Position numbers and translations under genes: made by a program
The notes under the pieces: model-generated
Told to the model about the DNA's origin: nothing
Seen by the model: the letters and a program-made list of their open reading frames with translations, nothing else
The model's database searches: none
DNA from: a bacterium
Lineage (GTDB): Bacteria; BMS3Abin14
Reading direction: 5' to 3'
Assembly: GCA_029210545.1 (NCBI GenBank)
Contig: JARGFV010000069.1
Location: 1-13,869, forward strand
Length of the DNA stretch: 13,869 nt
Shown: positions 6,991 to 13,869 of the stretch, piece by piece
Position numbering within the stretch: the stretch's first letter is position 1
How the letters are laid out: each line of letters begins with the position of its first letter

Positions 6991-7100
6991 GGCGACGCGG
7001 AGAACAACTGGACGCGGCGACGCGGAGATGGGGAGACGCGGGGAAGAGAACAGCCGCAATGTACAGCCATGTCTCCGTGTCACCGTGTCACCGTGTCTCA
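6991..7100 (-). repeat. 110-nt dispersed repeat, copy 1 (gpmI-comF spacer)
   Basis: Aligns without gaps to 12381-12490 with 11 differences (90 percent identity), including an identical 36-nt run at 7033-7068. The left half repeats GACGCGG units and the right half repeats CCGTGTCA units, so the ends can fold together (GACGCGGAGA with TCTCCGTGTC). It lies 21 nt after the gpmI stop and 70 nt before comF. Confidence 0.85.
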
Positions 7101-11447: not shown

Positions 11448-11475
11448 ACCGTTGTCATCCCTTTGTTAATCGCCT

Positions 11476-11648
11476 AAGTCCGGGTGGGACTTCGGCTCAA
11501 CGGAAACCGAAAAGCGGGGTTTCCGGTTTCCTCACGGATCGAAGACCTGTGGTCCATCTTCGATCCGGGCGCCTCTCACAGGCGCGATGGTTATTGATCC
11601 GGGCGCCCCGCGCGGGACGCGTTGACTGCTTCCATGCAAGGCTGTCAA
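11476..11648. repeat. Multi-hairpin intergenic repeat, copy 2
   Basis: Six stem-loops fill the nadD-rsfS spacer. AAGTCC 11476-11481 pairs with 11487-11492. The 12-bp stem 11502-11513 with 11520-11531 has one mismatch and loop GCGGGG. GGATCGAAGA 11536-11545 pairs with 11557-11566. GCGCCT 11569-11574 pairs with 11580-11585. The 11603-11620 palindrome has one change from the 32-49 copy. TTGAC 11622-11626 pairs with 11644-11648. Positions 11593-11625 match 22-54, and 11476-11531 is homologous in layout to 13808-13867. Confidence 0.8.
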
Positions 11649-11664
11649 TTTCATTTCTCCGATA

Positions 11665-12321
11665 CTATCCTGGGGCCGTCGTTTCCGGCCTGTAGATGCC
11701 GTTTAACTGGATATACTGGAAAACAGGCCCGGGGACAAGGTTTGCGATCTCTTCGCCCCTGGCGGCCATCTCCCTGATCCGGCTGGACGAGAGATCCACC
11801 GGTGTGACCTCCAGGGCACGAAGAGTGCCCCCGGCATCGTGGATGAAGACACCCTCCTTTCCCGGTGTGTAGCGGTGCCGGGCCTTATCGGGAAGGGGGC
11901 CTGTCAGATCAACGTCGAACCCGGGCCTGGTCAGGACCACAAGGTGGACCCGGGCCAGGACGTCCGCAGGCCGATACCAGGTGGAGATCTCGGCGAAAGC
12001 ATCGGCACCGAGGGCCAGCCAGGGGATCGCGCTCCCATGCCTGGCGCTGATCTCTTCTACCGTGTCAAGGGTGTAGGAAAGCCCCCTCCTCCGGATCTCC
12101 ATGTCGGAGGAAACAAGCCGTGGATCCTGCTGAACCGCGAGGCAGAGCATCTCGTATCGCTGGCCGGCTGTGGCCGAGGTCGCTGACCGGTGGGGAGGAT
12201 TAGCCGACGCCATCATGAAAACCCTGTCCAGGTCGAAAGCTTCGGCAAACTCCCCCGCCACGGTTATGTGACCGTTGTGGACGGGATCGAAAGTGCCGCC
12301 GAAGATCCCGATTTTTTTCAC
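11665..12321 (-). CDS. nadD: Nicotinate-nucleotide adenylyltransferase
   Basis: Joins ATP and nicotinate mononucleotide to make deamido-NAD in NAD synthesis; cytoplasmic. At 218 residues it carries GGTFDPVHNGH (8-18), the nucleotidyl-transferase ATP site, then ANPPHR, GADAF and the closing SSSRIREMAARGE, the ISxTxxR-like motif. Start is the GTG at 12321 with AAAGGA 8 nt upstream, which gives the usual MKKIGIFGG beginning. An in-frame ATG at 12501 would add 60 residues that are simply a translation of a dispersed DNA repeat and should not be annotated. It lies between proA and rsfS, the usual neighbourhood in relatives, although both flanking spacers now hold repeats. Confidence 0.96.
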   Translation of the reverse strand: MKKIGIFGGTFDPVHNGHITVAGEFAEAFDLDRVFMMASANPPHRSATSATAGQRYEMLCLAVQQDPRLVSSDMEIRRRGLSYTLDTVEEISARHGSAIPWLALGADAFAEISTWYRPADVLARVHLVVLTRPGFDVDLTGPLPDKARHRYTPGKEGVFIHDAGGTLRALEVTPVDLSSSRIREMAARGEEIANLVPGPVFQYIQLNGIYRPETTAPG

Positions 12322-12380
12322 CCTAACAATCCTTTTGCGGAAAAAACTCGGGATCTGCAGACGCGGTGACGCGGAGATGG

Positions 12381-12490
12381 GATGACGCGGAGAATAACTG
12401 GACACGGCGACGAGGAGATGGAGAGACGCGGGGAAGAGAACAGCCGCAATGTACAGCCTTTTCTCCGTGTCCCCGTGTCCCCGTGTCCCA
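12381..12490 (-). repeat. 110-nt dispersed repeat, copy 2 (proA-nadD spacer)
   Basis: The partner of 6991-7100 in the same orientation, 90 percent identical over 110 ungapped positions. Related GACGCGG units continue to about 12359. It lies 18 nt after the proA stop and 59 nt before the nadD GTG, nearly the same position relative to the upstream gene as copy 1. The rest of the spacer holds no gene. Confidence 0.85.
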
Positions 12491-12508
12491 GTGTCATGCA
12501 ATACCGGG

Positions 12509-13765
12509 TCATTCTCTCAGGTGCCCTTCGCCGAGGACCATCCACTTCTCCGTGGTCAGTTCCTCCAGTCCCATGGGCCCCCGGGCGTGGAGCTTGTCGG
12601 TAGAGATCCCGATCTCGGCTCCCAGGCCGAACACGAACCCGTCGTGCAGCCTGGACGAGGCGTTCACCATGACCGCGGCCGAATCCACCTCCCTGAGGAA
12701 CCGCTGGGCGTTCCCATGGTCGCGGGTGACGATGACGTCGGTGTGGGCAGAGCTGTAGCGGGCGATGTGGTCCATGGCCTCGTCAAGGGTGTCCACCACC
12801 CTTACCGAGAGGATCTTGTCCAGGTATTCGGCTCCCCAGTCCTCCTCAGCAGCCTCTTTCGCCCAGGCAGCCGCCTCCAGGGTCCGGGGACATCCGCGGA
12901 TCTCGACACCTTCGCTGCGGAACCGGTCCAGTAAACCGCTGAGGAACTCGCCCGCCATGTCCTGGTGGACCAGCATGGTCTCCATGGCGTTGCAGGTCCC
13001 GGGCCTGTCCAGCTTGGCGTTCAGGCAGATCTCGGCAGCCATCCGGGGATCGGCGCCGCTATCCACATAGGTGTGGCACACGCCGTCGAGATGCTTGATA
13101 ACGGGGATGGTGGAGTTTTCCATGATCATGCGGATGAGCCCCTTGCCGCCGCGGGGGATAATCAGGTCCACGTAATCATCCAGTGTCAGGAGCGCGCGGA
13201 CCGCCTCCCTGTCCGTGGTAGGTACTGCCTGAACGACCCCGGAGGGAAGTCCGGCTTCAGCCACGCACTCGCTGAAAAGTTGAGCGAGCGCGTGATTGGA
13301 GTTGACCGCCTCCGACCCCCCCCTCAGGATGCAGGCGTTGCCGGACTTGAGGCATAAAGCTGCAGCGTCGATCGTCACGTTGGGGCGGGACTCGTAGATG
13401 ATCCCGATGACCCCGATGGGAGCCCGTACACGGCCAACCCGGAAACCGCTGGGACGGGTCCACATACCCGTTACCGTCCCCACCGGGTCCGGCAGGGCGA
13501 CGATCTCCTCGACCGCCACGGCCATCGCTTCGATGCGTTCTCCGGTCAGCTCGAGACGGTCGAGCATGGCGCTGGTAAGTCCCGCCTTTTCCCCCGCCTC
13601 GAGGTCCTTGCGGTTCTCCTCCTGAAGGTGGCCTGCCGAACCCCTGATCTTTTCGGCGATCAGAGTCAGCGCCCGGTTCTTGTCGGCAGGCTTGGCTCCG
13701 GCAAGGATGCGGGCTGCGGTTCGAGCGTTACGACCCATTTCGGTCATGAGTTTGTTGATGTCCAT
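12509..13765 (-). CDS. proA: Glutamate-5-semialdehyde dehydrogenase (gamma-glutamyl phosphate reductase)
   Basis: Reduces gamma-glutamyl phosphate to glutamate-5-semialdehyde with NADPH, the second step of proline synthesis; cytoplasmic. The 418-residue length matches the family. IGVIGIIYESRPNVT (117-131) and ACILRGGSEAVNSN (144-157) are the cofactor-domain signatures, C258 in RPGTCNAMET is the catalytic thiol, and HDGFVFGLGAEIGIST with KLHARGPMGLEELTT marks the C-terminus. ATG at 13765 has AAGGTG about 5 nt upstream. proB would be expected just beyond the right edge of the window; instead the visible part of that spacer begins with an AT-rich stretch and a hairpin repeat. Confidence 0.97.
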   Translation of the reverse strand: MDINKLMTEMGRNARTAARILAGAKPADKNRALTLIAEKIRGSAGHLQEENRKDLEAGEKAGLTSAMLDRLELTGERIEAMAVAVEEIVALPDPVGTVTGMWTRPSGFRVGRVRAPIGVIGIIYESRPNVTIDAAALCLKSGNACILRGGSEAVNSNHALAQLFSECVAEAGLPSGVVQAVPTTDREAVRALLTLDDYVDLIIPRGGKGLIRMIMENSTIPVIKHLDGVCHTYVDSGADPRMAAEICLNAKLDRPGTCNAMETMLVHQDMAGEFLSGLLDRFRSEGVEIRGCPRTLEAAAWAKEAAEEDWGAEYLDKILSVRVVDTLDEAMDHIARYSSAHTDVIVTRDHGNAQRFLREVDSAAVMVNASSRLHDGFVFGLGAEIGISTDKLHARGPMGLEELTTEKWMVLGEGHLRE

Positions 13766-13802
13766 GTATTCACCTTAATTTCAAAATTCAAATTTGATAG
13801 AG

Positions 13803-13867
13803 TCGCAAAAAGTCCAATCCGGGACTTTTCGCTCCACGGAAAGGGAAAAGCGTCGTTTTCCCTTTCC
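13803..13867. repeat. Multi-hairpin intergenic repeat, copy 3 (cut by window edge)
   Basis: AAAAGTCC (13808-13815) pairs with GGACTTTT (13822-13829), and GGAAAGGGAAAA (13838-13849) pairs perfectly with TTTTCCCTTTCC (13856-13867) around GCGTCG. Positions 13803-13816 are the reverse complement of 55-68. The layout matches 11476-11531 with paired base changes. It may continue past the window. Confidence 0.75.
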
Positions 13868-13869
13868 TT

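Follow-up and report, generated by a model that had tools for sequence, protein, structure and literature searches.

A new MITE family with BOX-like hairpin modules in a little-studied bacterial phylum

The BOX repeats of Streptococcus pneumoniae are assembled as boxA-boxB(n)-boxC and range from 67-637 bp in size (PMC3049150). In Neisseria, the Correia elements, or NEMIS, have ends that carry TA termini (PMC2229807). The BrickBuilt MITE of Porphyromonas gingivalis has a 23-bp minisatellite unit, 19 copies and inconsistent target duplications (PMC4596501). The repeat described here was identified in the spacers of contig C69 of a genome of 2.72 Mb in 241 contigs; the whole of this contig, 13,869 nucleotides, is referred to as the window. 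The repeat is a new MITE family with BOX-like modules from a little-studied phylum; the kind of element is itself well known. No account of MITEs in Deltaproteobacteria came up in a search of the literature.

Like BOX, the element is a short, modular and strongly folded intergenic repeat with variable tandem modules that spreads by insertion. The boxB module corresponds to the 82-bp unit of hairpins A and B described below, and copies here are 91-568 bp long. It differs from BOX in having inverted repeats of about 20 bp, AANNTT duplications and a candidate transposase, and the hosts are unrelated. The element may be said to work like BOX, a likeness of design, and is not classed as BOX. With the Correia elements, compared by description, it shares a size of approximately 100-160 bp, terminal inverted repeats (approximately 24-26 bp in the Correia elements), long hairpins and many intergenic copies, but there are TA termini in Neisseria and 6-bp AANNTT duplications here. 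BrickBuilt is likewise a MITE in which a leader and a tail, both bearing inverted repeats, enclose internal tandem repeats, whereas the unit here is an 82-bp hairpin unit, there are approximately 250 copies and the target duplications are 6 bp.

Strings of hairpins had been noted from the sequence alone in three spacers of the window, and these are indeed present at 1-77, 11476-11648 and 13803-13867. They resolve into the following features.

1-75, + strand: right half of the element (model positions 81-155; nhmmer E 1.6e-20), made up of hairpin C, the GC-rich palindrome D and the right terminal inverted repeat, which ends in GAGTCCATC
76-81, + strand: AAGGTT, the right 6-bp target duplication (register and sequence), with its partner beyond the contig start
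11465-11646, + strand: a diverged, nearly full-length copy between nadD and rsfS, both on the - strand (nhmmer)
11502-11531, + strand: hairpin B of this internal copy, GGAAACCGAAAA GCGGGG TTTCCGGTTTCC, 11/12 paired (sequence and alignment A2)
11622-11648, + strand: right terminal inverted repeat of the internal copy, degenerate by comparison with the consensus, plus two flanking bases
13790-13795, + strand: AAATTT, the left 6-bp target duplication upstream of proA (sequence and register), with its partner lost at the contig end
13796-13869, + strand: left half of the element (model positions 1-74; nhmmer E 4.2e-23), made up of the left terminal inverted repeat GATAGAGTCGCAAAAAGTCC, hairpin A and hairpin B
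13838-13867, + strand: hairpin B, GGAAAGGGAAAA GCGTCG TTTTCCCTTTCC, 12/12 paired, the most frequent haplotype of the family

The three places are not three whole, independent copies, as the sequence-only reading had it. Only the copy at approximately 11465-11646, which is older and diverged, is whole, and 1-75 and 13796-13869 are half-elements. Because the two ends of the window each hold half of an element, two of the three places are truncations made by the assembly. Many contigs are broken at this same point; the repeat holds 11 of the 22 contig starts and 5 of the 7 contig ends in the sample. The first spacer, given as 1-122, belongs to the element at 1-75, and 78-122 lies outside it. The TTGA-led stems at 51-77 and 11622-11648 are counterparts as proposed, and both are the right terminal inverted repeat. 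The internal copy is matched in two parts, 11477-11588 (E 2.3e-10) and 11587-11638 (E 1.6e-4). Both of its terminal repeats are degenerate, the left one reading GTTAATCGCCTAAGTCC, and a target duplication is no longer recognizable in its flanks, CCCTTT and AATTTC.

The pattern GGAAANNGAAAAGCGNNGTTTT, allowing up to one mismatch, has 239 matches (122 + 117) in the 2.72-Mb genome, and the same pattern read backwards has none. A profile search of sampled stretches totalling 770 kb (28% of the genome) identified 75 clusters, which extrapolates to about 265 genome-wide; the copy number for the whole genome is therefore estimated at 240-270. Approximately 1.5% of the sampled sequence is made up of the element. 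The 38 places read in the sampled stretches share one layout, GATAGAGTCGCAAAAAGTCCAATCCGGGACTTTTCGCTCCACGGAAAGGGAAAAGCGTCGTTTTCCCTTTCCTTACAAATCAATGACTTACGGAGTGAGTCATTGATTTGGGCGCCCCGCGCGGGGCGCGTTGATGGACTTTTTGCGAGTCCATC, of about 155 bp. The modular hairpin family that had been proposed is a single dispersed element in which the modules vary in number. It is short, has many dispersed copies and is without a transposase gene.

Copies are mostly intergenic, as had been expected of them. Of the element bases, 94% are outside called genes and 6% inside, in a sample that is 83% coding and 17% non-coding by the simple gene caller written for this analysis. The median distance is 72 bp to gene 3' ends and 95 bp to gene starts. 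The orientation relative to neighbouring genes is unbiased, with 17 in the same and 22 in the opposite direction.

The terminal inverted repeats are about 20 bp and imperfect (GATRGRSTCGCAAAAAGTCC), and the left and right ends are not identical. They are flanked by host sequence that is directly repeated over 6 bp and has the consensus AANNTT. In this genome, 17 of the 38 copies with paired ends and flanks have a duplication that is identical at all six positions, and the two central columns match in 23 and 28 of the 38, where 11-12 would be expected. In G003, a genome of a second genus in the same family, 15 of 24 duplications are perfect, against 6% of mismatched flank pairs.

Sites that lack the element have also been found. 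Where this genome has 221 bp between nadD and rsfS, five relatives have spacers of 0, 0, 23, 29 and 32 bp, so the internal copy in the window was inserted in this lineage. Across 153 adjacent gene pairs conserved with part of G003, eight spacers are occupied only here, seven only in G003 and three in both. Thus 15 of the 18 occupied orthologous spacers are filled in one genus only. The three common sites are slightly above chance (p=0.025), which suggests that some copies may be old or that some sites are preferred. At one gene, an element of a different subfamily is found directly at the stop codon in both genera (L050:3437-3591 and G003:C1:286081-286257), and at L050:3437-3591 its left end appears to supply the stop codon itself (TTTGATAG). 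This appears to be either a preferred site or an old shared insertion.

On the basis of the terminal inverted repeats, the target duplications and the empty orthologous spacers, the element is a MITE, a non-autonomous DNA transposon. It is present in 11 of the 12 genomes of the phylum, all 12 of which are from one family. None of 374 genomes outside the phylum carries it, with only two fragments of 24-25 bases found there. The best copies in this genome and in G003 are 97.4% identical, in comparison with 71.5% for the DNA of proA, which suggests recent activity or exchange.

The interior of the element, between its ends, is a chain of the hairpins A, B, C and D. Locus L041 carries 4.3 tandem copies of the 82-bp unit (hairpins A and B) and 2.6 of a 35-bp unit. 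The BOX-like modular variants would have arisen as unequal recombination or slippage added copies of the 82-bp A+B unit and of the C/D unit of about 35 bp.

A candidate for the mobilization of the MITE is present in the same genome. A search with PF01609 identified an intact transposase ORF of 520 aa at C1:15775-17337, within an insertion sequence (L031, G000:C1:15757-17424) that is the one intact ISNCY/IS1182-like copy. The protein matches DDE_Tnp_1 and DUF772. Its best NCBIfam matches are to IS1182 (1.6e-33) and ISNCY (1e-9), and IS5 is matched too; all of these are below the cut-off. The insertion sequence may belong to the ISDol1 subgroup. Its inward-facing ends, GACGGCATCGCAAAAAGT and GATGGACCCGCAATTAGT (around the ORF also given as GACGGCATCGCAAAAAGTATC and GATGGACCCGCAATTAGTCACG), are similar to the ends of the MITE. 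ISNCY (ISDol1-like) and IS1182-like elements differ from the MITE in that they carry a transposase. Matches to the end pattern with up to 4 mismatches occur about once per 20 kb, so that two correctly placed ends are unlikely to have arisen by chance. The right end of the insertion sequence is degenerate, and its flanks, AATATT and AAGGTT, fit AANNTT and are not duplicates of one another. Fragments of related transposases in genomes G007 and G009 begin with GATGGCTTCGCAAAAAGT and GACGGACTCGCAAAAAGT, and GATGGCTTCGCAAAAAGT, from G007, is identical to some right-end variants of the MITE. The scan of genome contigs identified a single relative of the 520-aa transposase, in SZUA-204. G003, where there are many young copies of the MITE, has no match to this protein. 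From the similarity of the ends, this insertion sequence is the probable mobilizer of the MITE.

The transposase would act in trans on the ends of the MITE and insert it, with a stagger of 6 bp, at AANNTT sites. It is highly probable that the whole is best explained in this way, as a MITE with AANNTT 6-bp duplications, probably mobilized in trans by an ISNCY/IS1182-like transposase, with BOX-like modules and with pairing maintained at the level of the DNA. The other PF01609 hits that were considered, on contigs C154 (IS1634), C27, C14 and C79 (an IS5-like fragment), do not include a transposase enclosed by two matching ends. A copy of the element at 15585-15751 has inserted directly beside the right end of the insertion sequence L031:15757-17424.

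The starting point of the sequence-only reading was a pair of 30-nt hairpins, at 11502 and 13838, in which two pairs are swapped (CC/GG versus GG/CC) and the frame is kept. This is correct, except that the stem at 11502-11531 has a mismatch, A-C, at pair 9. Whether paired changes exceed chance, as had been suggested from these copies, was examined with 32 distinct hairpin B sequences and 500 shuffles. Pairing is found in 96.4% of the cells (88.8 in the shuffles) and double changes at 7 of the 12 pairs (3.0 in the shuffles) and in 24 cells (5.1 in the shuffles). None of the 500 shuffles reached any of these values, and the signal is lost when the partners are shifted out of register. The double changes include A-T to G-C, A-T to T-A and G-C to C-G. 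The counts can be inflated by kinship between the copies, but without genuine compensation it would be difficult to account for double changes at seven pairs. The covariation of hairpin C is similar.

Over the four stems, one-sided changes outnumber paired ones, 91 to 25. Among the one-sided changes are 29 G-T and 45 A-C, so G-U is not in excess on the modelled strand, although selection on an RNA of that strand would be expected to tolerate it. The folding of the element is very stable on both strands (z of -9.1 and -9.3). Paired changes are not clearly concentrated in shared haplotypes relative to singletons (p=0.10). The absence of a G-U excess, together with the nearly equal folding of the two strands, suggests that pairing is kept at the DNA level, either through selection on the mobile source copies or through correction of the palindromes, and the data fit both. 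Most likely, pairing would be kept because only well-folded source copies continue to transpose, or because palindromes are corrected on the DNA.

The sequence-only reading had suggested a selected structure, as RNA or as cruciform DNA, and selection of this kind by the host is not supported, given the inverted repeats, duplications and empty sites of a transposable element, the lack of a G-U preference and the unbiased orientation. A structured RNA that stabilizes mRNA, provides a processing site or acts as a small RNA could account for the strong folding and for a covariation that is real, and some copies are within operons. Against it are the near-equal stability of both strands, the one-sided changes with no surplus of G-U, the occurrence of both gene orientations, the 15 spacers filled in a single genus and the lack of an Rfam family match over the gathering score in the window. 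It is improbable that the element and its covariation are explained in this way. Copies within operons, such as that between nadD and rsfS, may incidentally change how the mRNA is processed. The position of the hairpins in spacers near the ends of genes would also suit bidirectional terminators or other transcriptional punctuation that selection has spread. No T run follows any stem inside the element, a search there for intrinsic terminators (a GC-rich stem and then a T run) had no match, and of 57 copies only 6 are between convergent genes and 12 between divergent genes, which is near the make-up of the spacers. This role is very improbable. There is also no promoter match inside the element. 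Since there is neither a G-U preference nor a bias in orientation, nothing points to a host RNA function, and a function for the host is not indicated.

Two further readings concern how such hairpins move and how they stay paired. High-copy intergenic palindromes are reminiscent of REP/BIME repeats, for which a RAYT (Y1 tyrosine) transposase serves as mobilizer by recognizing hairpins in single-stranded DNA, and the genome has two Y1 transposase genes, one of them RAYT-like. However, there is no element within 1.5 kb of the IS200-like gene, the RAYT-like gene is not flanked by the element on both sides, and Y1 enzymes are not known to produce either the 6-bp target duplications or the long terminal inverted repeats that the element has. 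A Y1/RAYT mobilizer is contradicted by the target duplications, and a relationship of this type is extremely improbable. The RAYT-like gene (L084:1429-2118, G000:C150) has one copy of the element approximately 770 bp upstream and no sign of mobilization. The paired changes could instead be mutational, with intrastrand template switching at replication copying one arm onto the other so that palindromes stay perfect, a mechanism known from quasipalindrome mutation and compatible with a MITE. A flip from G-C to C-G, as seen at two adjacent pairs, cannot pass via G-U, every step appears paired (GGG, GCG and CCG, with matching arms) and the mismatches have no strand preference. The excess of one-sided over paired changes, which persists in single copies, means that any such correction would be inefficient, and template switching is a possibility, held tentatively. 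That the hairpin chain serves mobility itself, with the folded DNA, in addition to the terminal repeats, recognized or protected during transposition, pairing selected on the DNA and the modules gained or lost as units, is rather doubtful. If true, this would be a DDE-mobilized element in which the structure of the interior, rather than its sequence, is under selection.

Regarded as a MITE, what looked like an RNA puzzle becomes a mobile element that can be counted, and one that also breaks genome assembly. It is a good test of why bacterial hairpin repeats keep their pairing, be it selection on RNA, selection through transposition or mutational correction, because the copies number in the hundreds, differ in age and occur both within one genome and across sister genera.

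The spacers contain other sequence types. Short arrays of 8-bp units, for example GACGCGGA, TGTCACCG and CCGTGTCC, are unrelated to the element and are found at 7011-7041, 7070-7097 and 12465-12495 in the window and at L046:7050-7065. Such arrays also adjoin further copies of the hairpin element. In addition, a perfect 16-bp inverted repeat, ATAAACAAATACGGCC and GGCCGTATTTGTTTAT, at 2687-2721 of the window, is located just past the end of an ORF and may be a bidirectional terminator.
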